Source: Candidatus Poribacteria bacterium (GTDB lineage Bacteria; Poribacteria; WGA-4E; PCPOR2b). From it: a stretch of DNA of 64,000 bases. Positions 3,831-60,289 of the stretch are shown piece after piece. The stretch is from NCBI GenBank assembly GCA_028819845.1, contig JAPPKS010000021.1:62001-126000 (forward strand), given 5' to 3'. How positions within the stretch are numbered: position 1 is the stretch's first letter; each line of letters starts with the position of its first letter. The position numbers and the translations under genes are program-made. The notes beneath the pieces were generated by a model. It was given only the letters and a program-made list of their open reading frames with translations, was not told the DNA's origin and made no database searches.

Positions 3831-3891
3831 ACGAAGAGATAACCGCTAGGTTTAAGGGTGGGAGAACGAGCGGAATAGGGTGAGGAGAAGA

Positions 3892-16811: not shown

Positions 16812-17375
16812 AATCTTCCTCCTTTCGATTCTCATCTGCCTCAATCCGAGGCGATTCCTAACAAAACTACGGGTGTGTGAAAGCCATCGCTTGATTGTTC
16901 CTTCCGGCTTTCCCAACCGTACCGCAATTTGTCTTATGGTTAAACCTTCGAGATAGAATAGGTGAGCGGCTTCGACATAATTTGGAGGCGCTTCGGACAA
17001 AGTATGGAGTACGGTATTGAGCAGGTCGGTCTGGAAGCTATGGTGTTGACTTCGTCTATTGATGATGGGTTCAAGATCACTATTCGCCATGGGCGCCTCT
17101 CGACGCTGGGCTGACCGAAAGAAATCATGGCATCGGTTTCGTGCGATTTGCATGACCCATGCAGTCCACCTGTCCGGGTTCCGAAGCCCCTTTAAACCCT
17201 GCCACACATCCAAGAGTACTTCTTGTAAGATATCCTCGGCAGATGCGGGGTCAGAGATTTTGGATTTGACAAGCTTCACCAGCGGCGTCTCAACGCGTTT
17301 TATCAGGATCGAGAAAGCTTGGCTGTCACCGTCAATACTCTGTTTAATCAGTTCTCTGTCTGAGATACAACTCAT
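15858..17375 (-). CDS. ECF sigma factor fused to leucine-rich repeats
   Basis: This 505-residue protein joins an ECF-type sigma factor (~1-185) to leucine-rich repeats (~215-480). The sigma-2 region carries DILQEVLLDVWQGL and ARNRCHDFFRSAQRR. The sigma-4 helix-turn-helix carries LEGLTIRQIAVRLGKPEGTIKRW. About eleven repeats follow the L-x-x-LP-x-x-I-x-x-L pattern, for example LKQLPNQIVSLSRL and LGRLPNEMSKLRNL. I start at the ATG at 17375, matching the paralogue's MSQIPDRELI; an in-frame start at 17435 would add 20 residues with no counterpart. It lies 99 bases downstream of the paralogue, so the two are probably one transcript. No anti-sigma gene is nearby; the repeats may do the sensing. An internal start at 16811 could release the LRR part alone. 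Confidence 0.88.
   Translation of the reverse strand: MSCISDRELIKQSIDGDSQAFSILIKRVETPLVKLVKSKISDPASAEDILQEVLLDVWQGLKGLRNPDRWTAWVMQIARNRCHDFFRSAQRREAPMANSDLEPIINRRSQHHSFQTDLLNTVLHTLSEAPPNYVEAAHLFYLEGLTIRQIAVRLGKPEGTIKRWLSHTRSFVRNRLGLRQMRIERRKIMTSDAHESEYYQRRALRDIAACREDGAASLNLKNPVGSKELPSEVWTLTQLKDLSLWWNNLENISEEIGRLKHLESLYVESDQLKQLPNQIVSLSRLRHLEVIGGQMTELPADFCRLSALRTVIFQRTQLQELPASFGNLNRLEVAEMDNNQFSKLPDDLSGLTNLRVLTLQGHQFSALPKTIGQLSAMEELYLGGNRLGRLPNEMSKLRNLETLAIEDNQIQSLPPCIGNFSKLQYLYVESNRLANIPREIGQLTELRELALSNNQLTSLPKALADLPNLQILKLHDNPLPDRLIQASENGIDEFRRAVAEVTFQV
16809..16823 (-). promoter_or_regulatory. Strong internal ribosome binding site in ECF-LRR gene
   Basis: The minus-strand sequence is AGGAGG, six bases (AAGATT), then ATG. 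It matches the anti-Shine-Dalgarno consensus fully and lies exactly at the junction between the sigma and LRR domains. Confidence 0.65.
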
Positions 17376-17474
17376 TATGAGGTTGATTTTCCGTGCAAAA
17401 CAGTTTTCCAAAAAGCGGGTGTGCCCAATTGTCAAATCTCGGCTGGACTCCGGGCAGGCGTGAAGTTGACCATG

Positions 17475-18584
17475 TTAGGAGTACGGTGCGACATCCCACA
17501 GCAGGATAGTGCTGTCAAAACCGCCGCTTGCAAGCAGACGGCCATCGGGGGAAAAGGCGAGAGATTCAACTTGGCTATTATGTCCTGAAAATTCAGCAAT
17601 GAGGTTCCCAGATTCTACATCCCACAGCCTAATGGTTTGCTCCGGCAAAGTTCCGCCGGTGGCGAGGCGGGAGCCGTCCGGCGTAAACGCAATATACGAA
17701 ACCTTTCTGACATCGAGAGCCGCTATATTTTGCCATGTCCCTGTATGCCATAGATTAACATGTTCATTTGAAACGGCTGCGACGTGATGTCCATCAGGTG
17801 AAAACGCAACCGCTCTAACCTGGGACGGGTTTTCGAGCGTGGCAATATTTTTGCCCGTGGCGACCTCCCAAACTCGGGCGGTTTTGTCAATATGGTTCTC
17901 ATCAGGGGTAAAAAAATGTGATTTACCCTCTTTCATTATAAACACAAGTTCACCGTCTGTGTTTCTAGCTACACTCTCTGGATGTTCTATCCAATTGTCC
18001 GCTCCTCCACTTACTAGGAATTTTCCATCGGACGAGAACGCAAGCACATAGATTTCGCCTGTATGACCTTTCAGAGATCGATAGACAGTTTGGGTTTCCA
18101 CATTCCAGAGTGTGACTGTTCTATCCCAGCCGCCAGTTGCCATGTGTTGGCCATCCGGTGATACCGCAGCGGCAAATACAGGTTGTTCCGGCGTGAAGTC
18201 CGCGATAGCCCCCTCATTCCACAATCTGACTGTTTCTTGCCCGCCGGTTGTAAAAAAACTGATAACCAGAAAGCTCCCATCGGATGAGCAGGTTACAGTT
18301 TCCCCTCGGCATAAATTAACATGCAAACTATGCCCTGTCACCTGCTCGAATGTCCGGATTTTTTTCCCGTTTTCAATATCCCACAGCGTCAGGGAGTAAT
18401 CTGTGTCGAGACCGGCGAGGTGTTTCCCATTGCGTGAAAAAGCGGCAATCCAACGGTTAATCTCTTGAGAGTGTTGAACTGGTTGATCCTTTCCGTATTT
18501 GCCGAACCGGGCGACGGCGCCGGGCGGTAAACAGAGGGTGTTCTGTTGAGGGTAGTTGCCGGTTAAAGGGCTAGCGGAAGTCAT
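17475..18584 (-). other. Possible separately translated WD40 protein (internal start)
   Basis: An ATG at 18582-18584 preceded by AGGAGG (18591-18596) with a six-base spacer lies at codon 189 of the fusion gene. Initiation there would give a 369-residue stand-alone propeller. Position and spacing match the LRR paralogue. Confidence 0.5.
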
Positions 18585-19148
18585 GGTCTTCCTCCTTTCG
18601 GTTTTCATCTGCTTCAATCCGAGGCGATTCCTAACAAAACTACGGGTGTGTGAAATCCATCGCTTGATTGTTCCTTCCGGCTTTCCCAACTGCACTGCAA
18701 TTTGTCTTATGGTTAAACCTTCGAGATAGAATAGGTGAGCGGCTTCGACATGATCCGGCGGCGCATGGGACAGGGTTTGGAGCACAGTATCAAGCAGATC
18801 AGCCTGAAAGCTGCCGTGTTGGCTTCGTCTATTGAGGATGGGTTCAAGATCGCTATTCGCCATGGGCGCTTCTCGACGCTGAGCTAACCGGAAGAAATCA
18901 TGGCATCGGTTCCGAGCAATCTGCATGACCCATGCAGCCCACCTGTCCGGGTCCCGAAGTCCCTTTAAACCTTGCCACACATCCAAAAGTACTTCTTGTA
19001 AAATGTCCTCGGCAGATGCAGTGTCAGGGATTTTGGATTTGACAAGTTTCACCAGCGGCGTCTCAATGCGTTTTATCAGGATCGAGAAAGCTTGGCTGTC
19101 ACCATCAATACTCCGTTTAATCAGTTCTCTGTCTGGGATTTGACTCAT
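17475..19148 (-). CDS. ECF sigma factor fused to WD40 repeats
   Basis: This 557-residue protein has an ECF sigma factor (~1-185) followed by WD40 repeats (~225-555). The sigma half is nearly the same as in the gene at 15858, including LEGLTIRQIAVQLGKPEGTIKRW and the ERRK-MTS junction. WD40 lines include GWDRTVTLWNVETQ, SADNWIEH-like and FDSTILLWDV, with GH...D...W spacing giving about seven blades, enough for one propeller. WD40 propellers bind proteins, so this domain may control the sigma factor in place of an anti-sigma partner. Fusions of ECF sigma factors to large C-terminal domains are known from Planctomycetes. The region 19149-19437 upstream is shared with the divergent SprA-like gene. 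Confidence 0.88.
   Translation of the reverse strand: MSQIPDRELIKRSIDGDSQAFSILIKRIETPLVKLVKSKIPDTASAEDILQEVLLDVWQGLKGLRDPDRWAAWVMQIARNRCHDFFRLAQRREAPMANSDLEPILNRRSQHGSFQADLLDTVLQTLSHAPPDHVEAAHLFYLEGLTIRQIAVQLGKPEGTIKRWISHTRSFVRNRLGLKQMKTERRKTMTSASPLTGNYPQQNTLCLPPGAVARFGKYGKDQPVQHSQEINRWIAAFSRNGKHLAGLDTDYSLTLWDIENGKKIRTFEQVTGHSLHVNLCRGETVTCSSDGSFLVISFFTTGGQETVRLWNEGAIADFTPEQPVFAAAVSPDGQHMATGGWDRTVTLWNVETQTVYRSLKGHTGEIYVLAFSSDGKFLVSGGADNWIEHPESVARNTDGELVFIMKEGKSHFFTPDENHIDKTARVWEVATGKNIATLENPSQVRAVAFSPDGHHVAAVSNEHVNLWHTGTWQNIAALDVRKVSYIAFTPDGSRLATGGTLPEQTIRLWDVESGNLIAEFSGHNSQVESLAFSPDGRLLASGGFDSTILLWDVAPYS
18582..18596 (-). promoter_or_regulatory. Strong internal ribosome binding site in ECF-WD40 gene
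   Basis: The minus-strand sequence is AGGAGG, six bases (AAGACC), then ATG, at the sigma/WD40 junction. The full-length start at 19148 has only a weak purine run (AAGAGA) upstream. Confidence 0.65.
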
Positions 19149-34676: not shown

Positions 34677-35444
34677 TCAGCGTCCAATCTTCATCAAAGG
34701 GACATTGGAATTTGAATATGTATGGTTTAGGCTATTGGCGGTCTCATGTTTTCGAGGAGGCCGCCAAGACATTTGGAATTTGCCTATTAGAAAGATTCCT
34801 GCCAAAAAACCGCCGATGTGCGCCAACCAAGCCACTGCAGCATCTTGAGATGAAAGATAAACAAAATTAAACAATTGCACTAGTATCCAAGGCACAAGCA
34901 CAACAATTGCCGGCAATGAGACGATATAAATTAGAAACAGGCATCGAATACGGGATTTGGGGCGAGCGAAAAGGTGGGCGCCCATCACGCCGGCAATTGC
35001 GCCGCTTGCGCCGATCAGAGGCACGTCGGAGTTGTAGTGAAATACAACGTACAAGAGAGTGGCTGACACCCCGCATAGCAGATAAAAAAAGAAGAATTTC
35101 ATTCGTCCAATTGCATTCTCAAGATTGGGGCCGAACGCCGAGAGATACAGCATATTACCTATGAGATGGACGAAGCCCCCTTGGAGGTTATATGTATCGT
35201 GCAGAAATAGAGAGGTGATTAGGGTTGGACGCGATAAGTCCGGCAATTGCGGAAAAACGAGGATAAATTCGCTAATCCTTTGGGGTATAACGCCGAAATG
35301 TAAAGAGAGATTCAAGCCGCGATAATGCCAATAATAGAGCTGGCAGGCAAAAACGAGGATATTGGCAGCAATTAACAACTGCACTGCGCTAGGTAGTTTA
35401 GAAGATTTTTCCGCCCGAGGCGGACTGGGCAATGGAATTAACAA
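34677..35444 (-). CDS. Rhomboid-family intramembrane serine protease
   Basis: This 255-residue membrane protease cleaves transmembrane segments of other proteins. The catalytic dyad is Ser147 in GASGAIAG and His209 in AHIGGF. The oxyanion-hole Asn is probably Asn97 in HLIGNMLYL. Six hydrophobic helices fit the bacterial core fold, and the N-terminus MLIPLPSPP is close to the usual start of the family. The final ~30 residues are polar and cytoplasmic. Substrates are not predictable. Confidence 0.92.
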   Translation of the reverse strand: MLIPLPSPPRAEKSSKLPSAVQLLIAANILVFACQLYYWHYRGLNLSLHFGVIPQRISEFILVFPQLPDLSRPTLITSLFLHDTYNLQGGFVHLIGNMLYLSAFGPNLENAIGRMKFFFFYLLCGVSATLLYVVFHYNSDVPLIGASGAIAGVMGAHLFARPKSRIRCLFLIYIVSLPAIVVLVPWILVQLFNFVYLSSQDAAVAWLAHIGGFLAGIFLIGKFQMSWRPPRKHETANSLNHTYSNSNVPLMKIGR

Positions 35445-40886: not shown

Positions 40887-41729
40887 TTGAAAAGTACGAA
40901 CGACTGTGAACCAACCTTGACCGATACGCAGGTATTGGAATTCTGCAAGAACGGCTATGTAATGTTGGAGGCCGTTGTTCCAGATGAGATTAACCGGAAA
41001 ACGTTTGAATTCATTGAAAACCATGGCCACGGCCCCCTTCTGCAGGAGGAGTGGTTTGTGGACGAGGTGCTGCTCAATCACCAGGCAGCGGGTGCGGTGC
41101 GTTCATTGCTGGGCAAGAACTTTGCGCTACCCAAGGGGATGGCTAACCATCGAATGGAATGCCCGGCTCCAAATCAGAATTGGCACCGCGATGGCGGCTC
41201 ACGTTATGCGCCGGAACTGAATCATTTGCAGGTATTTTATTACCCGCAGGATGCACCGGTGGAGATGGGACCCACGGAAGTGGTGCCGGGTTCCCATTTT
41301 TTCTTTTGCTTACAGAGTTGGATGTCGCACTACGGAGGGATTCAAGGCAGGGTTAAAACCGCCGCGCCCGCAGGATCGATTTTTCTCACGGTTTATTCGA
41401 TATGGCATCGCCGTTCGGCGTCCACAGCAAGCGGTATTCGTAATATGCTGAAATACTGCTACTGGCGAACGACGCCGCCGCAGCGGGATTGGATTATCGA
41501 ACCCGACTTTGACTTCGGGCACGATCACACCCCTATATACAGTCTAGACGGTCCCAACTTTCGGCAGCAGTTTCGCGATTGGTATGACGCTGCGGAGATG
41601 TTTTACTGGCTCTGCGGATTAACTGATGAATTCAAAGCGGTTTTGGGCGGCGAAGGTTGGCCGCCGGGTTATCCAATCATGTGGAAACCTAAAGGATTTC
41701 ATAGACAAGTTCCCGCGTCAACCGGATAG
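40887..41729 (+). CDS. Phytanoyl-CoA dioxygenase (PhyH) family protein 4
   Basis: This 280-residue Fe(II)/2-oxoglutarate oxygenase has ligands His100-x-Asp102 (NWHRDGG), His174 (SIWHRR) and Arg185. It is very close to PhyH 1 at 5932: the loop PVEMGPTEVVPGSHFFFC and the tail RQQFRDWYDAAEMFYWLCG are shared, so the two probably act on similar substrates. The start is TTG, chosen because GGAGGAGG lies seven bases upstream and no ATG fits. It is isolated from the other three by 34 kb and has no small-protein partner. Confidence 0.88.
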   Translation: MKSTNDCEPTLTDTQVLEFCKNGYVMLEAVVPDEINRKTFEFIENHGHGPLLQEEWFVDEVLLNHQAAGAVRSLLGKNFALPKGMANHRMECPAPNQNWHRDGGSRYAPELNHLQVFYYPQDAPVEMGPTEVVPGSHFFFCLQSWMSHYGGIQGRVKTAAPAGSIFLTVYSIWHRRSASTASGIRNMLKYCYWRTTPPQRDWIIEPDFDFGHDHTPIYSLDGPNFRQQFRDWYDAAEMFYWLCGLTDEFKAVLGGEGWPPGYPIMWKPKGFHRQVPASTG

Positions 41730-44565: not shown

Positions 44566-44725
44566 GGGCGCTCACTTTGAGTCTTGAGTAGGCGCGTGCA
44601 GCGCCAAACCTGACAACATTTGTGCTGGCAAATTGAACTGAAGAGGCCGAATGTCCACAACCGGTAAGGTCAAAGGCTAGGAAATTAAAAGCCGCGTATT
44701 GAAAATCTGTAATGAGGTGATAAAA

Positions 44726-45730
44726 ATGCTGTCCCGAGAAGCGTCAATGCCGACTGTGTACTTCAGCATACTGTTGTTGATTCACGCCGTGCTCGCGGCG
44801 GGTACCGAAGCGCAGGCACCTGAAAAACCGACCATCGCAGTCTCCAGCGATTCAGGAGGCAATAATGCAATATGGTATATAGACCCCGATGGCGGCGACC
44901 CGCGCTCAATTCTGAAAATCGAAGGCGCTCCGCTGTCTTGGGGGATGGAGTGGTCGCCGGACGGCAGCCAGATTGCGTTCCACACCCAAGTGGGAAAGAA
45001 TGTGGATGTCTACGTGATGGACGGCGACGGCGAAAAACTCAAAAGACTAACTGACCATGAGGGGGAAGATAGCTGGCCGACGTGGCACCCTAGCGGCAAG
45101 CGGCTTGCGTTCGCGTCCGACAGGGATGGAAACCTTGAAATCCAGGTGATGAATCTAGTGGGTAAGGTTTTGGAAAACCTCACAAACGACCCCGCCCCGG
45201 ACACTCAACCCACCTGGTCACCGGACGGCCGGCAGATAGCCTTTGCTACCAAGCGGGGTAAATCGCTTGGCGACATCTGGGCGATGGAAGCGAATGGAGA
45301 TGAGCCGCGGAATCTGACGAATACTCGCGGGAAGGAAATTCAACCGAAGTGGTCACCGGACGGCAAGTGGATTGTTTGGTCCTCGCAAAGGAATGGAAAC
45401 GGCGATATCTTCGTGATGGATCCCCAGGGCGAGAATCTCAGGCAGATTTCCGGGGTTCGGAAAGACGCTATTGGACAATGGGATGACCGCGAGGTTTCGT
45501 GGTCGCCTGACAGTAAAAAGGTAGTCTACATCAGCCGCAGTCCCATCTTTATCGCGGAGGTAGACAAGGATGATGAGCTAGTTGCACACCCGATGTTGCC
45601 GGATATCGGGGTAATCCACGGCTCTCCAGCTTGGTTTGACCCTGATTTTGTCCGAGCGTTTTCCGTTTCACCGGTTGAGAAACGCCCGTTGGCGTGGGGG
45701 TGGCTTAAAAAGTTAAGACGAGGCAATTGA
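44726..45730 (+). CDS. Secreted PD40/TolB-like propeller 1
   Basis: This 334-residue exported beta-propeller has a signal peptide (STVYF-ILLLIHAVLAAG region) then PD40 (TolB-like) repeats of ~43 residues. Key lines are EWSPDGSQIAFHTQ, TWHPSGKRLAFASDRDGN, TWSPDGRQIAFATKRGK and KWSPDGKWIVWSSQRNG. The C-terminus has the family tail SPAWFDPDFVRAFSVSP ... AWGWLKK. It is the first of eight tandem paralogues. The start at ATG 44726 fits AGGTGA five bases upstream, a leader repeated before propeller 6. It lacks the N-terminal domain of true TolB, so a Tol-Pal role is unlikely. The ligand is unknown. Confidence 0.85.
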   Translation: MLSREASMPTVYFSILLLIHAVLAAGTEAQAPEKPTIAVSSDSGGNNAIWYIDPDGGDPRSILKIEGAPLSWGMEWSPDGSQIAFHTQVGKNVDVYVMDGDGEKLKRLTDHEGEDSWPTWHPSGKRLAFASDRDGNLEIQVMNLVGKVLENLTNDPAPDTQPTWSPDGRQIAFATKRGKSLGDIWAMEANGDEPRNLTNTRGKEIQPKWSPDGKWIVWSSQRNGNGDIFVMDPQGENLRQISGVRKDAIGQWDDREVSWSPDSKKVVYISRSPIFIAEVDKDDELVAHPMLPDIGVIHGSPAWFDPDFVRAFSVSPVEKRPLAWGWLKKLRRGN

Positions 45731-45843
45731 TGACCGCTGGTGCTAGCGTGCATGGGGCACTGGGGAAACTTCCCCGCGGCTTGCGGCGGGAAGGTGAGGC
45801 TTTTTGGCGTTGGGCTAACGCGGGCGAGATAGGGAATGCGCAG

Positions 45844-46854
45844 ATGCAAGACCTCCGAAATTCGACCATGCGGAAAGTATGCGCCGGTCTGGTTTTCTTG
45901 GCGACCATCATCCTGCCGGCGATTGCGCTAGCACAGAAAGCGCCCGACAAACCGACTATCGCGGTTTCCGCTGACCCGCGCGAGGGAGGCACGATTTGGT
46001 TAATTGACCCCGATGGAGCGGACCAACGCGCCATTCTAGACATAAGTGGAAACCCGTTGCCGCTAGGATTGGCGTGGTCGCCGGATGGCCGAAAACTGGC
46101 GTTTCACACGGAAGTAAATGGAAATGTTGACATCTATGTAATGAACGCCGATGGGCGTAATCTCAAACAGCTCACCGAAGCGCCTGCAGAAGACAGTTGG
46201 CCTCAATGGCACCCCGGCAACCAGCGAATTATCTTCACGTCTGACCGGGACGGCAATTTTGAAATTTACGTGATGACGGCGGAGGGTGAAGTCATTGAAA
46301 ACCTAACAGATGACCCAGTCATTGACATTGACCCCGCCTGGTCGCCGGATGGCCGAAGCATTGTCTTCTCTTCTAAGCGAGGGAAAACGCTCGGCGATCT
46401 TTTCGTGATGGATGCGAACGGTGAAAACTTGCTTAATCTCACCAACCATCGTGCTCTAGATACGCAACCCAAGTGGTCGCCGGATGGCTCGCAAATTCTC
46501 TGGACATCCCATCGCGATGGAACGGGTGATATTTTTCTAATGGACGCCGACGGCGGGAATGCTGCGAAACTCAATGCCTTCGCCGCACCACGCGACCATT
46601 GGGAGGAACTTGAGCCCACTTGGTCTCCCGATGGGGGGATGGTTGCTTACGTGACGGCTGGGGGCGGGGATAGTTTCATTATCTTGGCTATCGCCGGGGC
46701 TGATGAAGCAGAGCAAGGGCGGTTGCAGATTGGTGCACGAACTCGGTCACCTGCATGGTTCGACCCCGACTTCATCGGCGCATTCGCCGTTTCCCCTGCG
46801 GCTAAACGCATTTTAACTTGGAGCTGGTTAAAGCGGGTAGTTCATGGTAATTGA
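45844..46854 (+). CDS. Secreted PD40/TolB-like propeller 2
   Basis: This 336-residue protein is the second member of the array. A signal peptide (VCAGLVFLATIILPAIALA) precedes six to seven PD40 blades (AWSPDGRKLAFHTEVNG, AWSPDGRSIVFSSKRGK, KWSPDGSQILWTSHRDG), and the tail SPAWFDPDFIGAFAVSP ... TWSWLKR follows. I place the start at ATG 45844 because its MQ start resembles propellers 3 and 7; a GAGG-preceded ATG at 45730 would add 38 residues from a GC-rich stretch (45761-45800) that looks intergenic. The longer form cannot be excluded, as it would be coupled to the TGA of propeller 1. Confidence 0.83.
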   Translation: MQDLRNSTMRKVCAGLVFLATIILPAIALAQKAPDKPTIAVSADPREGGTIWLIDPDGADQRAILDISGNPLPLGLAWSPDGRKLAFHTEVNGNVDIYVMNADGRNLKQLTEAPAEDSWPQWHPGNQRIIFTSDRDGNFEIYVMTAEGEVIENLTDDPVIDIDPAWSPDGRSIVFSSKRGKTLGDLFVMDANGENLLNLTNHRALDTQPKWSPDGSQILWTSHRDGTGDIFLMDADGGNAAKLNAFAAPRDHWEELEPTWSPDGGMVAYVTAGGGDSFIILAIAGADEAEQGRLQIGARTRSPAWFDPDFIGAFAVSPAAKRILTWSWLKRVVHGN

Positions 46855-46944
46855 CAATTTGCCGTATGATAAACGATGCGCGCGTTGATCGACAGCATTG
46901 CACAGGAGATGTTCAATTAACTCATTTCAGAAAGCACGCAAACG

Positions 46945-47790
46945 ATGGACGGAAAAACGGTACTGATTACCGGCGCTGACGGCGGCATTGGGAGAGAAAT
47001 TACCAAAGCTCTCGCTAAAAAAGGTGCGGCCATTGTCATGGCATGCATCGATCTAAACGATGCTCGACCTGTGTACCAATCGATTAAACTGGAAAGCGGG
47101 AACACGAAGGTTGAGATGATGCAGGTTGATTTGGCATCGCTCGCTTCCATTCGTGAGTTCGCCGATGAATTATCGCAGAAATATAACCATTTGCACGTGT
47201 TAATAAATAATGCGGGCATCTTTCGCCCTGAAAGGGAAGAGACTCCGGATGGATGTGAAGCGACCATGGGAGTTAACTATCTGGGTCCATTTCTCCTTAC
47301 GAATTTGCTGCTGCCAATGCTCAAACAGGCGCCCGAAGCGCGCATTGTGAATGTTGCGTCCAATGCGTATGTTCAGGGCAAAATTGACTTTGACGATCCA
47401 CATTTCCAAAGGAAGTATAAGAGTTTCAAGGCGTATGCAACTTCCAAACTGGCTGTTGTTCTGTTCACCATGGAAATTGCGGAGCGTTTGAAAGATACAC
47501 GCGTCACGGCAAACGCATTGCATCCGGGCCAGGCCTCTACTGAAATTTGGAATGTGCATCCGCAGAAGTGGTACCAACCTTTGATGAGTAAAATCATGAA
47601 ACGGTTTACCCATTCCCCGGAAGAGGCTGCGCAGACCAGTATTTATTTGGCGAGTTCCGATGAGGTTCAAGGGGTTACCGGCGGATATTTTGACAAAAAG
47701 AAGCTCAAAGCGATACCGCCCAAATTTAAAGATACGCAACTACAGAAGGGGCTTTGGGAGCTAAGCGAAAAACTGACGGGGCTTGCATAA
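46945..47790 (+). CDS. Short-chain dehydrogenase/reductase (SDR)
   Basis: This 281-residue NAD(P)-dependent oxidoreductase has the cofactor motif TGADGGIG (residues 8-15), the structural NNAG, catalytic Ser in VNVASNAY and catalytic Tyr-x3-Lys (YATSK). The overall pattern resembles retinol-dehydrogenase-like SDRs (GVNYLGPFLLTNLLLP, TANALHPG). It sits between propellers 2 and 3 with gaps of 90 and 122 bases. It is the only unrelated gene inside the PD40 array, so it may be either an insertion or a functional partner. The substrate is unknown. Confidence 0.9.
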   Translation: MDGKTVLITGADGGIGREITKALAKKGAAIVMACIDLNDARPVYQSIKLESGNTKVEMMQVDLASLASIREFADELSQKYNHLHVLINNAGIFRPEREETPDGCEATMGVNYLGPFLLTNLLLPMLKQAPEARIVNVASNAYVQGKIDFDDPHFQRKYKSFKAYATSKLAVVLFTMEIAERLKDTRVTANALHPGQASTEIWNVHPQKWYQPLMSKIMKRFTHSPEEAAQTSIYLASSDEVQGVTGGYFDKKKLKAIPPKFKDTQLQKGLWELSEKLTGLA

Positions 47791-47912
47791 ATTCGGCGCA
47801 TATTTTGAAGCAAAGTGTGACGGTAAGTATGTGAAACCTTTCCACAAACGGAGCGATTCGATTAACGATGCGAAGAATAATCCGTAATCGTACCGGAAGG
47901 GGGTTATCGGCT

Positions 47913-48896
47913 ATGCAATTACGGAAGCTATATGTCCTGTACATCGGTATGTTCATTTTGATTGGAATAGGGTGCATCGTGAGTGTTGAGGCACAGGCGC
48001 CCAAAAACCCGACCATTGCGGTCTCTAGCGATGCAGCGGGCGGGAATATTTGGGTGATGGATACTGATGGGGAAAATCAACGCCCTATCCTTGAAGTTGG
48101 CGGCGATCCAGTTCCCTTGAGTTTGAACTGGTCGCCGGACGGCGAAAAACTGGTTTTTCATACACATCTGAAGTTGAACACTGATATCTACATTGTCGAC
48201 GGCGATGGGGCGAACCTCAAAAGACTCACCGACCACGAGGCGGAGGACGCGTGGCCCGACTGGCATCCTAGCGGTCAACGTATTGCATTTTCAACAAACC
48301 GTGACGGAAACTTTGACATCTACACGATGACGCCGAATGGAGTTATCCAGAAGAAACTTGTAGATGACCCTGCCAACGATCTCCATCCGGCGTGGACGCG
48401 GGACGGCCGTAAGCTTGCGTTTAGCTCCAAGCGCGGGCGGACGCTGGGAGATGTCTACACCATGGATGTGGATGGTCAAAACCTGACCAATCTCACCAAT
48501 CATAAAGCGGAAGACAGCCAACCTGCGTGGTCTCCGGATAATGAGAAGATAGCATGGATCTCTTTTCGGCCGGGGAACGGTCAACTCTTCGTGATGGATG
48601 CTGCGGATGGCGGGAACATAGTTGAGCTAATCGGTTATGCGGGAGTGAAGCGTGATCCTGAGTGGTCACCAGATGGCAGAAGGGTCGCGGGTGTGGGTTT
48701 TGGCGGCGGCAGGGCTGTAGTTTTTACTAGCAACCCCAACGGAGAAGGCGACTGGAAAGAGATACCGGACATCGGTTTCCCGAATCGGTCTCCAGCTTGG
48801 TTCGACCCTGGGTTTATTCCGGAGTTTTCCGTGACGCCTATCAAGGCGCGGCTCTTGAGTTGGGGATGGGTGAAACAGGTGCGATTGGACAATTAA
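47913..48896 (+). CDS. Secreted PD40/TolB-like propeller 3
   Basis: This third array member has 327 residues. A signal peptide (LYVLYIGMFILIGIGCIVSV) is followed by PD40 blades (NWSPDGEKLVFHTHLK, DWHPSGQRIAFSTNRDGN, AWTRDGRKLAFSSKRGR, AWSPDNEKIAWISFRPGN) and the tail SPAWFDPGFIPEFSVTP ... SWGWVKQ. The cysteine at the end of the signal region (GIGCIVS) could be a lipobox; the pattern is weak. The ATG at 47913 (MQLRK) matches sibling starts; an in-frame start at 47868 is possible. Confidence 0.83.
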   Translation: MQLRKLYVLYIGMFILIGIGCIVSVEAQAPKNPTIAVSSDAAGGNIWVMDTDGENQRPILEVGGDPVPLSLNWSPDGEKLVFHTHLKLNTDIYIVDGDGANLKRLTDHEAEDAWPDWHPSGQRIAFSTNRDGNFDIYTMTPNGVIQKKLVDDPANDLHPAWTRDGRKLAFSSKRGRTLGDVYTMDVDGQNLTNLTNHKAEDSQPAWSPDNEKIAWISFRPGNGQLFVMDAADGGNIVELIGYAGVKRDPEWSPDGRRVAGVGFGGGRAVVFTSNPNGEGDWKEIPDIGFPNRSPAWFDPGFIPEFSVTPIKARLLSWGWVKQVRLDN

Positions 48897-48972
48897 CAAT
48901 GGACTGTGTGTGCGGCGGAATGACGCGCTGACACACACCGCGAATTTTCAATTCCACAAAAGGGACCACAGG

Positions 48973-49980
48973 ATGTGCATTCAGAAATTTTTGATATGTG
49001 CGGTATATTCGGTCTGGCTGTTACTACTACTGAGTGCGATACTCATCGGGAACGCGCCGGCTGAGGTGCCGGACGAGCCGACAATTGCGTTTGCTACGGA
49101 CGTGAGGAAAGGGGTAGGCATCTGGTTTATGACTCCCGAAGGAGAGAATCCTCGGTTGGTTTTAGAGGTTGGAGAGGACTCGCTGCCGTCGGGCTTAACT
49201 TGGTCATTCAACGGGAAACAGATTGCGTTCCATGCCGAATTAGAAGGGAACATTGATGTCTACGTTGTGGATGCCCGCGGGGAAAATCTCAGCAGACTGA
49301 CGGACCATCCGGGAGAAGATAGCTGGGCGGCTTGGCACCCGGAAGGGGAAAGGCTTGCCTTTTCCACGAATCGCGATGGGAACCTTGAAATCTATGCAAT
49401 GACGTCGTCGGGAGAGGCATTGGAAAATATCACGAACGACTCGGTGCAAGACCAGTACCCCTCGTGGTCGCCAGATGGTAGAACGATAGCCTTTGCTTCC
49501 AAACGGGGGAAGACTCTAGGGGACATCTTTGTGATGGATGCTAGCGGTGAGAACGTACGAAATCTCACCAACGTTCGCGGCGAAGATATTCAACCCAAGT
49601 GGTCGCGGGACGGGAATCGAATTGCTTGGACCTCTCGCCGTAACGGTGCTGGGGAGATTTGGTCAATGGAGGCGGATGGAGCGAATCCGATGAAGATAAG
49701 CGACCTCCAGGACCCCAGAGCGCCGGGAGTGAGAAATAGGGATGTTACGTGGGCGCCTGACGGCGGACGTATTGCCTCGACGGCGTTTGGACAGGGAGGA
49801 GTAATTAACATCCGAATCCATCCTTCGGATGGCAATCTGGAGTGGCAAGATTTACCGGCGGTGGGCGGTGAAGATAGGTCGCCGGCTTGGTTTGATCCAA
49901 CCTTCGTGGGTGCATTTTCCGTCTCCGCGGCGGAGAAACAGCCTTTGACCTGGGGCTGGTTGAAGCTGGCAGGACGATAA
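48973..49980 (+). CDS. Secreted PD40/TolB-like propeller 4
   Basis: This fourth array member has 335 residues, with signal peptide FLICAVYSVWLLLLLSAILIG. Blades include TWSFNGKQIAFHAELEGN, AWHPEGERLAFSTNRDGN, SWSPDGRTIAFASKRGK and KWSRDGNRIAWTSRRNG. The block ISDLQDPRAPGVRNRD marks it as one of a subgroup with propellers 5 and 6. The tail is SPAWFDPTFVGAFSVSA ... TWGWLK. The start is taken as ATG 48973 (MCIQKF); a longer frame from 48910 adds 21 polar residues ahead of the signal peptide and is less likely. Confidence 0.83.
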   Translation: MCIQKFLICAVYSVWLLLLLSAILIGNAPAEVPDEPTIAFATDVRKGVGIWFMTPEGENPRLVLEVGEDSLPSGLTWSFNGKQIAFHAELEGNIDVYVVDARGENLSRLTDHPGEDSWAAWHPEGERLAFSTNRDGNLEIYAMTSSGEALENITNDSVQDQYPSWSPDGRTIAFASKRGKTLGDIFVMDASGENVRNLTNVRGEDIQPKWSRDGNRIAWTSRRNGAGEIWSMEADGANPMKISDLQDPRAPGVRNRDVTWAPDGGRIASTAFGQGGVINIRIHPSDGNLEWQDLPAVGGEDRSPAWFDPTFVGAFSVSAAEKQPLTWGWLKLAGR

Positions 49981-50106
49981 CGAATACTAACTACCTATAT
50001 TCGTTTTCAGTTGAAAACCGATTTGGAAATTATGGGCAGCGGCGTAGATAGGGCGGCATCACATATTCCTTCGTACACGCACGCTTTCGTTAGGAGGTTG
50101 TAAGCT

Positions 50107-51108
50107 ATGGAAATACAAAAAACATTATCACGTGTAATTTGTTTCTGTCTTCCGCTCTTGTACAGCACGGTACTTGCGATGGACGTAGAAGCACAAGCGC
50201 CGAATCGGTCGACCATTGCGGTTGCAAGTGATGGCGACGTAGGCATCTGGCTGATGAATGATAACGGCGGTGGCGCCCGCCTCATTTTGCCGATTGACGG
50301 CAATCCTATGCCGTCGGGTTTGGTGTGGTCTCCGGACGGAACAATGATAGCATTTCACACGGAGATAGATAAAAACGTTGATATTTACGTGGTTAACGGC
50401 GACGGAGAAAACCTTCGTAAGCTCACGGAACACGAATCAGAGGACAGCTGGCCCACATGGCACCCCAGCGGGCAGAAGATAGCCTTCCACACCAACCGTG
50501 ACGGCAATCTTGAGATTTACACAATGACGTCACGCGGGGATATTCTGGACAACCTGACCAACGATGCTGTCAAGGACCACTATCCGGCGTGGTCGCCGGA
50601 CGCTCGACGGATAGCGTTTGCCTCCAAACGCGGGAAGACGCTGGGCGATATATTCCTGATGAGCCAGAATGGCGAGATTTTGGAAAATCTCACGAACGTT
50701 CGGGGTGAAGATTTTCAACCCAGGTGGTCTTGGGACGGCAAGCAGATTGCGTGGACCTCTGCTCGAAATGGCGCAGCAGAAATTTGGGCGATGGACGCGG
50801 ACGGCGCGAATACAAGGCAGATTAGCGATCTGCAGGATCCAAAAGCGGCAGGCTTTCGAGTTCGGGAACCCTCTTGGTCGCCGGATGGCAAACTCATCGC
50901 TTCGGCGGCGCTTGGGGGCGGCAGCGCGACTATTCGCGTGCATTCGGCAAAGGGCAACCTGAATTGGATGGACCTGCAGGCAATCGGCGCCCAAGACCGT
51001 TCCCCAGCGTGGTTCGATCCGAAATTCGTAGTTGAGTTCTCCGTTACGCCAGTCGAGAAACGTCCAATGACGTGGGGATGGGTAAAGCAAATAGTGCAAG
51101 ATGATTGA
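50107..51108 (+). CDS. Secreted PD40/TolB-like propeller 5
   Basis: This fifth array member has 333 residues. The signal peptide (VICFCLPLLYSTVLAMDVEA) is followed by VWSPDGTMIAFHTEIDKN, TWHPSGQKIAFHTNRDGN, AWSPDARRIAFASKRGK and RWSWDGKQIAWTSARNG. The subgroup block ISDLQDPKAAGFRVRE is followed by SWSPDGKLIASAALGGG. The tail is SPAWFDPKFVVEFSVTP ... TWGWVKQ. The AGGAGG Shine-Dalgarno lies nine bases before the ATG. It is most like propeller 6. Confidence 0.86.
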   Translation: MEIQKTLSRVICFCLPLLYSTVLAMDVEAQAPNRSTIAVASDGDVGIWLMNDNGGGARLILPIDGNPMPSGLVWSPDGTMIAFHTEIDKNVDIYVVNGDGENLRKLTEHESEDSWPTWHPSGQKIAFHTNRDGNLEIYTMTSRGDILDNLTNDAVKDHYPAWSPDARRIAFASKRGKTLGDIFLMSQNGEILENLTNVRGEDFQPRWSWDGKQIAWTSARNGAAEIWAMDADGANTRQISDLQDPKAAGFRVREPSWSPDGKLIASAALGGGSATIRVHSAKGNLNWMDLQAIGAQDRSPAWFDPKFVVEFSVTPVEKRPMTWGWVKQIVQDD

Positions 51109-51185
51109 CTTGCTAGATTGATATGTGAGACCTCACACTCTTAAACGCGGTTACGCATAAACCTTTAATCAATGAGGTGATTACG

Positions 51186-52196
51186 GTGCAAAATCGAATA
51201 GTGTTGATGTGCGTCTGGTTATTGGGGATGTTGGTATTGAGCAACGCAGTATTAGTTGTGGGGGCGGGTGCAAAAGCGCCCGCGAGGGAAGTTATCGCAC
51301 TCACGACTAATGCGGGTGAAGGGGTAGGTATATGGATGCGCAGCCCCGATGGGAAGAACCCGCGGCTGATTCTAGAAATTGACGGAGACCCGATACCCTC
51401 GGGCTTGCAATGGTCTCCGGACGGCAACCAAATTGCGTTCTTCACCAAATTGGAAGACAACATTGATATCTACGTGGTGGATGCCAACGGCGAAAATCTC
51501 GAAAAACTTACCAACCACGAGGCGGAAGACAGTTGGCCCACCTGGCATCCTAGCGGCCTAAGGATGGCATTCCAAACTAATCGTGACGGGAATTATGAGA
51601 TTTACACGATGAATACGCGGGGTGACATTTTGGGTAACCTGACGAACGATCCAGCCAAGGACCAGTATCCGGCATGGTCGCGAAACGGGCGGCAGATTGC
51701 CTTTGCGTCGAAACGAGGCAAATCCCTTGGAGACATCTACCTTATGGATGGTGAAGGGGAGATTCTGCAGAACCTTACTGATGTTCGAGGCGAGGATATC
51801 CAACCGACATGGTCGTGGGACAACAAAATGATTGCTTGGACGTCTCGTCGAAGCGGCAATGATGAGATTTGGACAATGGACGCCGCGGACGGCGGGAATA
51901 TTTTGAAGATTAGCGACCTTCAAGACCCAAAGGCGGGCGGTTTCCCCAACAGGGAGGCGAGTTGGTCGCCGGACGGGAAACACATTGCTGCGGCGGCGCT
52001 CGGCGGCGGCCAAGCGAACATCCGTATCCACCCGGCGACCGGCAATCTGAACTGGAATGATCTCCCAAACATCGGCTTGCAGAACCGCTCGCCGGCGTGG
52101 TTCGATCTTGATTTCGTGGTTGAATTCTCCGTTGAACTTGTTGACAAACAAGTATTAACGTGGGGTTGGATTAAGCAGGTTGGCGGCGATGACTAA
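51186..52196 (+). CDS. Secreted PD40/TolB-like propeller 6
   Basis: This sixth array member has 336 residues. The signal peptide (VLMCVWLLGMLVLSNAVLVVG) precedes QWSPDGNQIAFFTKLEDN, TWHPSGLRMAFQTNRDGN, AWSRNGRQIAFASKRGK and TWSWDNKMIAWTSRRSGN. The subgroup block is ISDLQDPKAGGFPNRE, and the tail SPAWFDLDFVVEFSVEL ... TWGWIKQ. The GTG at 51186 is preferred: it stands six bases after AGGTGA, and the GTG at 51177 overlaps that ribosome site. Confidence 0.85.
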   Translation: MQNRIVLMCVWLLGMLVLSNAVLVVGAGAKAPAREVIALTTNAGEGVGIWMRSPDGKNPRLILEIDGDPIPSGLQWSPDGNQIAFFTKLEDNIDIYVVDANGENLEKLTNHEAEDSWPTWHPSGLRMAFQTNRDGNYEIYTMNTRGDILGNLTNDPAKDQYPAWSRNGRQIAFASKRGKSLGDIYLMDGEGEILQNLTDVRGEDIQPTWSWDNKMIAWTSRRSGNDEIWTMDAADGGNILKISDLQDPKAGGFPNREASWSPDGKHIAAAALGGGQANIRIHPATGNLNWNDLPNIGLQNRSPAWFDLDFVVEFSVELVDKQVLTWGWIKQVGGDD

Positions 52197-52263
52197 TACG
52201 CTTTGGTATTGGAGTTTTAACCATCAGTCAGATTCCGGATATCAAACAGTGAGGTAGCAATTT

Positions 52264-53241
52264 ATGCAAATTCAGAAAATGCGGCGTTATGTTGTGTTTG
52301 TCGGCGTGTTTCTTTTTGTCAATGGCGTACTTTTGACGCACGTCCATGCGCAAGCGCCTAAGAAGCCAACGCTTGCGGTTTCCAGTGTAGGCGAAGGGGC
52401 GATCATCTGGTTGATGAATTTGGAAGGGGAAGATGTCCGCCCGCTGTTGGCGATTGACGCTAATCCACTGCCGTTGGGTCTGGAATGGTCGCCAGACGGG
52501 CGAAGGCTTGCGTTCCATACCGAGGTGAGGAAGAATATTGATGTCTACGTGGTGAATGCCAACGGGAAAAACCTCAAACGGCTCACCGAAGATGCTGCGG
52601 AAGACAGCCGGCCGAGTTGGCATCCGAGCGGCAAAACGATTGCCTTCACGACCAATCGGGACGGTAACTTTGAAATCTACACGATGACGGATGGGGGCCA
52701 GGCACTGAAGAACGTTACGAACGACGCGGTCAAGGACACCGATCCGGCGTGGTCGCCGGACGGACGAAGAATGGCGTTTACTTCCAAACGGGGGAGGACG
52801 CTTGGGGACATTTACGTCATGGACGCGAACGGGGAGAACATGCGAAATCTGACGAAAAACCGATCCGCGAATACCCATGCCGCGTGGTCGCCCGATGAGC
52901 GGAAGATTGCGTTTATCTCGAACCGAACGGGTGCTGCCAACATCTATGCGATGGATGCTGCCGATGGTGCAAATCAGGTACCCATCGCGTGTTGCCGCGA
53001 TCCGGAGTGGTCTCCGGACGGAGAAAAGATTGCCGGCGCGACATTTGGGGGCGGTTCAAGGATTTTCATCCGGGATGCGGACGGAAAAGGGCCTCAGCTG
53101 GAACTTCCGGGGGTCAGTAACGTCAGCCGTGCGCCCGCGTGGTTTGACCCTGATTTTGTGACCGTATTCTCAGTGTCGCCTGCCCAGAAGCAGGCGCTGA
53201 CTTGGGGCTGGTTGAAGAAGGCGGCGCGTAACGAACAATAA
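52264..53241 (+). CDS. Secreted PD40/TolB-like propeller 7
   Basis: This seventh array member has 325 residues. A signal peptide (YVVFVGVFLFVNGVLLTHVHA) precedes EWSPDGRRLAFHTEVRKN, SWHPSGKTIAFTTNRDGN, AWSPDGRRMAFTSKRGR and AWSPDERKIAFISNRTG. A cysteine-pair block ACCRDPEWSPDGEKIAG, shared with propeller 8, replaces the ISDLQDP block of propellers 4-6. The tail is APAWFDPDFVTVFSVSP ... TWGWLKK. A GAGGTAG ribosome site precedes the ATG. Confidence 0.86.
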   Translation: MQIQKMRRYVVFVGVFLFVNGVLLTHVHAQAPKKPTLAVSSVGEGAIIWLMNLEGEDVRPLLAIDANPLPLGLEWSPDGRRLAFHTEVRKNIDVYVVNANGKNLKRLTEDAAEDSRPSWHPSGKTIAFTTNRDGNFEIYTMTDGGQALKNVTNDAVKDTDPAWSPDGRRMAFTSKRGRTLGDIYVMDANGENMRNLTKNRSANTHAAWSPDERKIAFISNRTGAANIYAMDAADGANQVPIACCRDPEWSPDGEKIAGATFGGGSRIFIRDADGKGPQLELPGVSNVSRAPAWFDPDFVTVFSVSPAQKQALTWGWLKKAARNEQ

Positions 53242-53303
53242 ACTATACCAGAGTTTTCAGTTGCCGCCCGATTTGATTTGAGAGAACTATCTTATCTAAC
53301 GTA

Positions 53304-54290
53304 TTGCAGGGGGTGAGGGCTATCCAAAATCAGAAAACAGAAATCTTGAAAATTAGTTTGGTTGTGCTTTTTCTAATGGGTGCGATGTTCCTGTCACGCG
53401 CCGAGTCGAAAGCACCGAACAATCCAACCCTCGCGGTCTCTACTAACGCGGACGAGGGCAATATCTGGTTGATGAACCCCGACGGCAACAATCAGCGTGC
53501 ACTGCTGTTGGTAAACGGGCAACCCTTGGGATTGGAGTGGTCGCCGGATGGCACAAGGTTGGCGTTCCACACTGAATCGAAGAAGAACATTGATGTCTAC
53601 GTTGTGAATGGGGATGGAATGAAGCTGAAACGACTCACCGACGATGCCGCAGAAGACAGTTGGCCGAACTGGCATCCTGGAGGTGGGAAGCTAGCCTTCA
53701 CCTCAAACCGCGACGGGAACTTTGAAATCTACACCATGAACGCGGCAGGGCAAATCATTGAGAATATTACAAACGACCCCGCTGACGACATCCAACCCGC
53801 GTGGTCGCGGGACGCCCGAAAGATTGCCTTCTCTTCGAAACGGGGTAAGACGATTGGAGACCTCCACCTCATGGACGCGAACGGAGAAAATCTGCAAAAT
53901 CTGACCAATCACCGCGCCAAGGACTCGCACCCTGCATGGTCGCCGGACAATGAAAAAATCGCTTGGATTACGGAACGTTCCGGGCATGCTGAAATCTTTG
54001 TAATGGGTGCAAATGGCAAAAACCAGATAAAAATCGGGTGTTGTAGAGACCCTGAGTGGTCACCGGACGGCAAAGAACTTGCTACGACTACGTTCGGGGG
54101 CGGCGTAGCGAAGATTATCATTCAAGATGCTGATGGAAAAGGAAATCGCACAGAACTTCCAACGATAGGCAACTTTAACCGCGCCGCAGCGTGGTTCGAC
54201 CCTGAATTTGTGACGTTTTTCTCCGTGTCGCCTGCCGGCAAGCAGGCGCTGACTTGGGGTTGGCTGAAGCAGGTTGGACGCAGCAAATAA
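53304..54290 (+). CDS. Secreted PD40/TolB-like propeller 8
   Basis: This eighth array member has 328 residues from the TTG at 53304. A signal peptide (ISLVVLFLMGAMFLSRA) precedes EWSPDGTRLAFHTESKKN, NWHPGGGKLAFTSNRDGN, AWSRDARKIAFSSKRGK and AWSPDNEKIAWITERSG. It shares GCCRDPEWSPDGKELA with propeller 7. The tail is AAAWFDPEFVTFFSVSP ... TWGWLKQ. The start is uncertain: aligned with propellers 6 and 7 the first codon would be ATC 53322, seven bases after GGGGGTGAGGG-type purines. TTG 53304 and GTG 53313 are the only standard in-frame starts. Confidence 0.84.
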   Translation: MQGVRAIQNQKTEILKISLVVLFLMGAMFLSRAESKAPNNPTLAVSTNADEGNIWLMNPDGNNQRALLLVNGQPLGLEWSPDGTRLAFHTESKKNIDVYVVNGDGMKLKRLTDDAAEDSWPNWHPGGGKLAFTSNRDGNFEIYTMNAAGQIIENITNDPADDIQPAWSRDARKIAFSSKRGKTIGDLHLMDANGENLQNLTNHRAKDSHPAWSPDNEKIAWITERSGHAEIFVMGANGKNQIKIGCCRDPEWSPDGKELATTTFGGGVAKIIIQDADGKGNRTELPTIGNFNRAAAWFDPEFVTFFSVSPAGKQALTWGWLKQVGRSK

Positions 54291-56980: not shown

Positions 56981-57035
56981 TGATCACATAAATTTCTCTC
57001 AACCAAGAATTGACAGCGTGAGGGGGGTGATAACC

Positions 57036-57833
57036 ATGTTTACGATTAGACAGAAGCTGTTTCTAGGTGGGGCAGTCTTGCTTTCAGTGCTACTGGTTGC
57101 GGGTAGTTACTTCGGTAGCCGTTGGCTCTTTGGTCCCGATGTTGAACCTACACCGGAACACCTATTGACGGCGGAACGTTCCTATGCCACCTCTGTTTCT
57201 CCAGATACGCCATCGGTGTCAGGGACAGATTGGGTATCAGAACTTGAACAATCACTCAGTGATGCCGATGATTCTGAAACTGAAACTGACTCTGCTAAAA
57301 TTGATGAAGATTTGGAGGCTCAGTTGGCGGCGCTTAGCGATGAGGAGTTAACTGCTCTTGCTGAGGCGCTGGAACAGGAGGAAGCGGAATCTAGTAAATA
57401 TCCTGAAGTACCTGATGGGTTTCCCATGACTCCGGTGTGGTTGGAAGATTATTTTCATGAACGTGATTTTTCCGCCCACGTCACGTTATACCGTGCGTTG
57501 ATAGAATTGTGGAATCGGGGTAATCACGATTTCGTGAATGGTACCTTAGATGAAGACACTGGTAGGGTCTACCCAATCTATCCGGACGTGATATACGTTA
57601 AGTGGGATAGTTATACCCGTGAAGGTCCTGATGGAGAGTCTATTGAGGTGCCTTATATCAGCGCTAGGCTTGGGGCTTCCAGCACAGTTGATCCTCTATT
57701 GAATAGCGATGAGGACCTTTTTACAGAGGAAGAAATACTGTCGGGGGCTTATAAGACAAAGTTTCCCGGTATAAAATTAGTTGAGTACGATAATGCAGGG
57801 TATGACCTGACTACCCTTCTTGGCGACTATTAA
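57036..57833 (+). CDS. Membrane-anchored acidic protein, cassette 1 gene A
   Basis: This is a 265-residue protein that I do not recognise. One membrane segment near the N-terminus (LFLGGAVLLSVLLVAGSYFG, ~8-27) should anchor it with the rest outside the cytoplasm. Residues ~65-120 are an acidic, Ser-rich helical stretch (SELEQSLSDADDSETETDS, then EDLEAQLAALSDEELTALAE). The C-terminal ~145 residues are the conserved domain (PVWLEDYF, YRALIELWN, HDFVNG, YVKWDSYTREGPDG, EDLFTEEEILSGAY). Its paralogue is at 59489. The ATG at 57036 follows GAGGGGGGTGATAACC; a start at 57018 overlaps that site. Gene B begins 12 bases after its stop. The sigma-54 promoter upstream implies activated expression. Confidence 0.85.
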   Translation: MFTIRQKLFLGGAVLLSVLLVAGSYFGSRWLFGPDVEPTPEHLLTAERSYATSVSPDTPSVSGTDWVSELEQSLSDADDSETETDSAKIDEDLEAQLAALSDEELTALAEALEQEEAESSKYPEVPDGFPMTPVWLEDYFHERDFSAHVTLYRALIELWNRGNHDFVNGTLDEDTGRVYPIYPDVIYVKWDSYTREGPDGESIEVPYISARLGASSTVDPLLNSDEDLFTEEEILSGAYKTKFPGIKLVEYDNAGYDLTTLLGDY

Positions 57834-59385: not shown

Positions 59386-59415
59386 TATAAGATAGCCATT
59401 AAGTAACACTTTGAA

Positions 59416-59433
59416 CTGCGGAACGGTCCGCAG
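59416..59433 (+). other. 5' leader hairpin of cassette 2
   Basis: CTGCGGA, ACGG, TCCGCAG is identical to the leader hairpin of cassette 1. Confidence 0.6.
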
Positions 59434-59488
59434 TGATCACATAAATCCCTCTCGACCAAGAAGTGACAGCGGTAGAAAGGTGATAACC

Positions 59489-60289
59489 ATGTTTACGAGT
59501 AAACAGAAAATTTTGGTGGGCGTCGCAGTTTTGGTCGCCGTGTTACTGGTTGCGGGCAGCTATTTCGGAAGCCGCTGGCTCTTTGGTCCCGATATTAAAC
59601 CTACACCAGAACACCTATTGACGGCGGAACCTTCATATTTCACCTCAGTTTCCCGCGGTACACCATCGGTTTCAGGAGCAGATTGGGTATCAGAACTTGA
59701 ACAATCATTCAGCGATACCGATTCGGCAACTGAATCTGACTCAACTCAAATTGATGAAGACTTGGAGGCTCAACTGGCGGCGCTCAGCGATGAGGAATTC
59801 ACCGCCCTTGCCGAGGCGCTCGAACAGGAGGAAACCAAATCCAGTAAATACCCGCCAGTGCCTGATGGGTTTCCTTCAGACCTCAAGCCAGTTTGGCTTG
59901 AAGACTATTTTGACGAGGACGATTTTTCCAACCACGTGACAATGTACCGCGTCTTGATAGAACTCTGGAATCAGGGAGACCACGATTTTGTAAATGGTAG
60001 TATCGATACCGACACCGGCAAGGTGTACCCGCTCTATCACGACGTCGTATATGTTACGTGGGACAGCTATTTTCGTGAAGGTCCCAACGGAGAACCTATC
60101 GAAGTCAAATATCTCAGCAGCAACCTCGGTACTCACGACACAGTCGGCTCCTTCAACGATGCAGGCGAAGATCTTTTTACCGAGGAAGAGATAATGTCAG
60201 GTGCTTATTTAACCAAGTATCCAGGTCTAAAATTAGTTGATTATAACAGTGCAGGGTATCACCCTGCAAATGTCCTCAATGACTATTGA
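59489..60289 (+). CDS. Membrane-anchored acidic protein, cassette 2 gene A
   Basis: This 266-residue paralogue of the protein at 57036 has the same layout: membrane segment ~8-27 (ILVGVAVLVAVLLVAGSYFG), acidic helical stretch (SDTDSATESDSTQIDEDLEA) and conserved C-terminal domain (PVWLEDYFDEDDFS, LIELWNQGDHDFVNG, EDLFTEEEIMSGAY). Differences concentrate in the middle of the C-terminal domain. The ATG at 59489 follows GAAAGGTGATAACC. Gene B starts 21 bases after its stop. The function is unknown; the surface or periplasm is the likely site. Confidence 0.85.
   Translation: MFTSKQKILVGVAVLVAVLLVAGSYFGSRWLFGPDIKPTPEHLLTAEPSYFTSVSRGTPSVSGADWVSELEQSFSDTDSATESDSTQIDEDLEAQLAALSDEEFTALAEALEQEETKSSKYPPVPDGFPSDLKPVWLEDYFDEDDFSNHVTMYRVLIELWNQGDHDFVNGSIDTDTGKVYPLYHDVVYVTWDSYFREGPNGEPIEVKYLSSNLGTHDTVGSFNDAGEDLFTEEEIMSGAYLTKYPGLKLVDYNSAGYHPANVLNDY

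Follow-up and report, generated by a model that had tools for sequence, protein, structure and literature searches.

A propeller array in Candidatus Poribacteria

The stretch of DNA analysed here (the window; 64,000 nucleotides, positions 62,001 to 126,000 of contig JAPPKS010000021.1 in assembly GCA_028819845.1, Candidatus Poribacteria bacterium) carries an array of genes for small PD40 propeller proteins that share a short C-terminal tail, and it is this tail, with its possible relation to type IX secretion, that concerns us. The array lies at 44699–54290 on the forward strand and comprises eight paralogous open reading frames (ORFs) of 325–375 amino acids (aa), 45–50% identical to the first member (Table 1). 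All eight match PF07676 (PD40) with E 1e-27 or better, have hydrophobic, signal-peptide-like N-termini and end in the tail. In these respects the first-pass annotation of the sequence, which described eight secreted, co-oriented paralogues with a common ending, was accurate. The array is interrupted, however, by a short-chain dehydrogenase gene that separates propellers 2 and 3.

An AlphaFold model of propeller 5 (mean predicted local distance difference test, pLDDT, 86.4; predicted template-modelling score 0.81) has six blades by manual strand count, and its best fold match in the PDB is TolB (1c5k, E 1.2e-20). The N-terminal domain of TolB is missing, as had been noted at first pass: the best stretches matching TIGR02800 start no earlier than profile position 163, with scores far under the cut-off. 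Two subgroups had been defined by the motifs ISDLQDP (propellers 4–6) and CCRDPEWSPDG (propellers 7–8). Both motifs are found, and both groups are recovered in a tree of 23 paralogues, in which propellers 4–6 join three propellers from the start of contig C31, propellers 7–8 lie near 3, and 1 pairs with 2. In total, the genome holds at least 21 full-length relatives, in the array and elsewhere.

The array had also been thought to diversify its surface loops. Mapped on the predicted propeller, strands and loops vary to the same extent (mean column entropy 1.09 bits in strands and 1.06 in loops; p 0.73), an outcome that the first-pass annotation had itself named as refuting, and loop diversification is rejected on this ground. 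At about 50% identity between paralogues, silent sites would probably be too saturated to reveal positive selection. As a family of small exported proteins multiplied by duplication, the array is unremarkable. The propellers may bind varied external ligands. Scanned for tRNAs and against Rfam, the window yielded nothing.

Table 1. Genes of the propeller array and the translocon-like gene of the window
Feature	Start	End	Strand	Tag and remarks
SprA/Sov-like outer-membrane translocon, 2188 aa	19438	26004	+	TIGR04189 E 5.3e-47, 159.9 bits, 4 stretches; curated cut-off 200
PD40 propeller 1, exported	44726	45730	+	tag VSPVEKRPLAWGWLK at 45665-45709
PD40 propeller 2	45868	46854	+	tag VSPAAKRILTWSWLK at 46789-46833; longest ORF begins 45727
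Short-chain dehydrogenase gene within array	46945	47790	+	without tag
PD40 propeller 3	47868	48896	+	tag VTPIKARLLSWGWVK at 48831-48875
PD40 propeller 4, ISDLQDP subgroup	48910	49980	+	tag VSAAEKQPLTWGWLK at 49921-49965
PD40 propeller 5, protein used for model	50107	51108	+	tag VTPVEKRPMTWGWVK at 51043-51087
PD40 propeller 6	51177	52196	+	tag VELVDKQVLTWGWIK at 52131-52175
PD40 propeller 7, CCRDPEWSPDG subgroup	52264	53241	+	tag VSPAQKQALTWGWLK at 53173-53217
PD40 propeller 8	53304	54290	+	tag VSPAGKQALTWGWLK at 54225-54269

A modular C-terminal tag on exported proteins

What is conserved in the tail is V-x-P-x-x-K-L-x-T-T-W-[GA]-x-[IL]-K, a stretch of 15 residues after which the chain mostly runs on for another 2–6 residues before the stop. 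The ending had been drawn at first pass as one element reaching from SPAWFDP to TWGWLK, and only its second half stands apart. In the model of propeller 5, strand 296–303, which closes the propeller, spans the start of SPAWFDP, so that this half belongs to the propeller; the rest is separate, with residues 312–333 at pLDDT below 50 and containing a detached helix. In the model of a LamG protein the tail is likewise a separate, low-confidence helix (residues 239–252).

A search that started from a consensus of 33 residues returned the propellers together with weak matches in frames of about 280 aa. The translations revealed exported proteins, LamG-like ones among them, that end in the same way. 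Profile A2 was built from 23 tails of this kind, all from outside the array; three belong to larger PD40 proteins encoded elsewhere and one to a protein of 340 aa. At E <= 10 it finds at least 121 places in the same genome, array tails among them (best 150 of 202 candidates), which contradicts the earlier view that the tail is private to the array propellers. In a test set of 1401 ORFs from 72 genome stretches and the window, A2 at 10 bits or more located the tag within 20 aa of the C-terminus in 108 ORFs and elsewhere in one; it scored none of the reversed ORFs and one of the shuffled ORFs. The 23 tails have no match in NCBIfam, and known tag families are rejected for that reason; Pfam gave a single match at chance level.

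The union of two profiles yields 125 tagged ORFs, and 124 of these can be aligned on the anchor W-x-x-x-K. Relative to the anchor, 118 tails have V at −10, 97 have P at −8, 104 have K at −5, 119 have G or A at +1 and 122 have K at +4, and the chain continues for a median of 4 residues beyond the last K (range 1–18). The presence of W in all 124 is by construction, because the anchor demands it and A2 also favours it; the one unanchored, shortened ORF also has W.

The tagged proteins are diverse. They form 11 phmmer clusters (75, 33, 5, 4 and 2 members and six singles), among which are LamG, propeller, cohesin, Ig-like and DUF3108-like types, and the members examined were named LamG_3, PD40, cohesin, Big_5, DUF3108-like and 3keto-disac_hyd by Pfam or had no match. 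LamG_3 and 3keto-disac_hyd belong to one fold class, which leaves about five folds that are truly unrelated. By a simple rule of our own, the N-terminus is signal-peptide-like in 118 of the 122 tagged ORFs considered, as against 47 of 124 without the tag (Fisher p 1.5e-25). Three tagged ORFs were left out as under the length limit or overlapping, and the untagged set includes some spurious ORFs. Secretion of the tagged propellers is well supported.

Two further groups of tagged genes came to light. Elsewhere in the same genome (C35:469000-480000) lies a second cluster of larger tagged proteins of 585–655 aa, with PD40 in the one scanned and a tagged 280-aa protein of unassigned family between the larger ones. 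Two other loci (L073 and L068) encode near-alike tagged proteins of 349 aa with a cohesin domain (PF00963).

The tag is phylum-wide. At E <= 1e-3, A2 matches all 84 Poribacteria genomes, representing 21 of 21 genera, with 23 to at least 103 matches per genome. Among 80 named loci of PD40 relatives from many phyla, the tag is present on 10 of 10 from Candidatus Poribacteria and 0 of 70 others, a count made partly by eye because six of the ten score just 3.5–4.8 bits with A2. The first-pass opinion that the tail is foreign to TolB and dipeptidyl-peptidase propellers is thereby upheld. In the whole genomes behind 48 of these loci, the tag is found in 8 of 8 Poribacteria (50–150 matches) and in 1 of 40 from other phyla. 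The exception is a planctomycete metagenome-assembled genome with two significant matches on one contig (L277 and L278 on C103 of G127), where a dioxygenase-like ORF lies beside both tagged ORFs; these tags are probably poribacterial contamination. These results show a modular tag that is placed at the C-terminus of exported proteins and present throughout the phylum.

Type IX homologues and their possible relation to the tag

Of 97 Bacteroidetes genomes in an earlier survey, 60 had type IX secretion, which was found in none of the other clades (Abby et al., 2016, PMC4793230). Tails of the type IX C-terminal domain (CTD) family TIGR04183 have been described on poribacterial WD40 proteins; the same study found no Por structural genes and left the export route open (Kamke et al., 2014, PMC3909097). 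In a literature search with few subscription journals or preprints within its scope, neither type IX machinery nor the present tail was found described for Poribacteria.

The SprA-like gene of this genome lies in the window, about 18.7 kb upstream of the array, a distance that is no evidence in itself because tagged genes are scattered genome-wide. The SprA family TIGR04189 (E <= 1e-3) is matched in 83 of 84 Poribacteria genomes, in frames of mostly about 2200 aa, and in 0 of 14 controls. A profile of 12 poribacterial SprA homologues (A3) aligns in hhalign with a strong SprA (L243; probability 99.4, E 2.4e-21, 1034 columns). NF033709 (PorV_fam) is above its cut-off in all 84 genomes, with 8–24 matches in each, and one copy matches the solved PorV structure (PDB 6h3i, E 1.4e-18). 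PorU-like proteins likewise occur in 84 of 84 genomes, one of them matching the solved PorU (PDB 6za2, E 1.6e-22). The genome of the window has 47 rows for the TIGR04183 CTD above the cut-off of 23 bits. Homologues of the type IX core are present in the same genomes as the tag.

Tag and CTD meet in part of the cargo. When 32 CTD sequences from the same genome were inspected, a tag-like segment was seen directly before the CTD in nine, e.g. VEPSEKLSTSLGNIKRTALLQNYPNPFNPETW, by manual judgement; a strict script pattern marks four of these. The position of W is occupied by L or F in all nine. Phylum-wide, the 30 junctions read (26 called by script and four by eye, with L247 from the same genome already among the nine) comprise 22 with L, five with F and three with W at this position, a count that is biased because the loci were picked by a profile built on L/F junctions. 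The same segment can thus end the protein, with W, or precede a CTD, usually without W. The two classes differ in size, the median being 276 aa for tagged proteins and 825 aa for CTD frames (p 2e-22).

The SprA-like gene is immediately preceded, on the opposite strand, by two neighbouring ORFs (15858-17435 and 17475-19148, − strand) that from their translations resemble ECF-type (extracytoplasmic function) sigma factors fused to leucine-rich repeats and to WD40 repeats. Elsewhere in the window, the translations reveal four phytanoyl-CoA-dioxygenase-like genes (5932-6822, 6898-7716, 8243-9082 and 40887-41729), a family expanded in Poribacteria, and a rhomboid-like intramembrane protease recognised by its GASGAIAGV motif (34677-35444, − strand). 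The ORF at 3880-5694 encodes a putative metalloprotease of MXAN_6640 type that scores under the family cut-off, and 57018-57833 and 59411-60289 are a similar, duplicated pair with a common N-terminal hydrophobic segment and acidic stretch.

Interpretation and comparison with known systems

With moderate confidence, we infer that the tag is a poribacterial C-terminal sorting tag for small cargo and that it is read by a divergent type IX system. Tagged proteins would cross the inner membrane via Sec. In the periplasm, the tag would be captured by the divergent machine, made up of the SprA-like translocon and one or more of the many PorV-type shuttles. The cargo would then be moved across the outer surface or end up displayed there, and a PorU-like enzyme may trim or attach it. 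The short tag would serve small cargo and the standard CTD of about 90 residues large cargo, and the eight propellers would be ordinary members of the small class, expanded via duplication. One intriguing possibility, to which we give somewhat less than even chances, is a type IX-like system in which a minimal peptide of 15 residues, and not a folded CTD, would address the main class of cargo (over 100 proteins in this genome), with separate PorV-type shuttles reading the different tags and the two signals adjoining and interchanging in some cargo. Three published observations touch on such a scheme. According to a paper on Prevotella intermedia, the last 22 residues of Hbp35 alone were absolutely required for secretion and attachment of green fluorescent protein (PMC11969387), which makes a short signal plausible for a type IX machine. 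Different signals are served by separate shuttles in Flavobacterium johnsoniae (PMC12618676), and in solved structures loops of PorV hold the CTD inside the SprA cavity (PMC10994853).

Several results weigh against a tag read by type IX. It matches no CTD model, TIGR04183 included (no match in the eight propellers or the 23 tails), and 23 of the 32 inspected CTDs lack a preceding tag, so that the link to type IX is circumstantial; the latter figure also disposes of the idea that the tag is a prelude to every CTD. To this comes the bias in the junction count. The tag is absent from 5 of 5 Bacteroidota genomes and is therefore no general mark of type IX cargo, although the type IX content of these five was not established. 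On the side of the machinery, SprA exceeds its curated cut-off in just 1 of 84 genomes, and that case (L243, 508 bits in frame, on G006:C30) is unlike the usual poribacterial SprA and may be either foreign to its genome through contamination or a second SprA type. Searches of the PDB with A3, and with a single sequence, returned no SprA chain. The equivalog cut-off of PorU (420 bits) is reached in 0 of 84 genomes, and the motor protein GldM was detected in 0 of 29, control genomes being equally silent. Finally, the helix predicted for the tail has a moment of 0.24, no higher than the 0.27 of shuffled sequences, and an amphipathic docking helix is rejected.

A sorting or anchoring tag read by a system other than type IX, e.g. 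an envelope anchor that keeps Sec-exported proteins at the outer membrane or wall, is a less likely alternative. It would accommodate a modular, terminal and phylum-wide tag on exported proteins that escapes all known CTD models and is missing from the five Bacteroidota genomes. Against it stand the presence of the type IX core throughout the same phylum and the adjoining of the same segment to type IX CTDs, and a transmembrane stretch of the exosortase or rhombosortase kind is rare, with a hydrophobic 19-mer within the last 60 aa in just 3 of 125 tagged ORFs. The likeness of the tag, in position and sequence, to the pre-CTD segment of one cargo group could also mean that it is a functionless linker left in proteins truncated by loss of their CTDs. 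This we consider improbable, given that the tag is better conserved than the domains preceding it (three of six invariant columns lie inside it among 17 tagged LamG paralogues that are 21–55% identical to the first), that the stop follows so closely on the last Lys in the anchored tails, and that the W of terminal tags is mostly missing where a CTD follows. More improbable still is the first-pass view of a private signature of propellers diversifying their loops for varied ligands: duplication and subgroups are real, but the tail is general in the genome and variation is even over strands and loops. The least credible reading, which is rejected, makes the tail a mere piece of the propeller or LamG fold, at the end of which most copies do sit: the tag occurs on unrelated folds, is absent from all 70 PD40 relatives outside the phylum and is detached with low confidence in both models.

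The propellers are of the TolB kind by fold. They differ from TolB in lacking its N-terminal domain, in carrying the C-terminal tag and in scoring 146–196 bits with TIGR02800 against a cut-off of 343, and also in number, considering the full-length relatives (at least 21) in one poribacterial genome. PEP-CTERM, GlyGly-CTERM and MYXO-CTERM are short, lineage-specific C-terminal tags found on many exported proteins of different folds, and these tags, like those of exosortase and rhombosortase, combine a transmembrane stretch with a basic end. The poribacterial tag is similarly short, lineage-specific and placed on exported proteins of various folds, but has neither the transmembrane stretch nor an NCBIfam match.

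The type IX system of Bacteroidota (Por/Gld) shares with Poribacteria a SprA-like translocon, shuttles of the PorV family, PorU-like proteins and cargo with the TIGR04183 CTD. Poribacteria differ in that their SprA (83 of 84 genomes) and PorU matches fall under the curated cut-offs, in the 8–24 PorV-family matches per genome and in a large additional class of exported proteins that ends in the 15-residue tag without a CTD. The SprA and PorV homologues found phylum-wide are a candidate for the export route left open by Kamke et al. (2014), and from the tag the exported proteome of this uncultured phylum of sponge symbionts can be predicted by a simple rule. The type A CTD (TIGR04183) is an Ig-like domain of about 70–90 residues, and neither the propellers nor the 23 tails match it. 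Comparable are the short CTDs of P. intermedia, where part of the cargo likewise carries a C-terminal signal of reduced size. As described there, they have 43–55 residues, three strands and the motifs B, D (GxY) and E (PMC11969387); compared with this description, the poribacterial tag is shorter, about 15–20 residues, and has no GxY. The known signals of type IX secretion are folded domains, and the tag may be a minimal signal for export by such a system.

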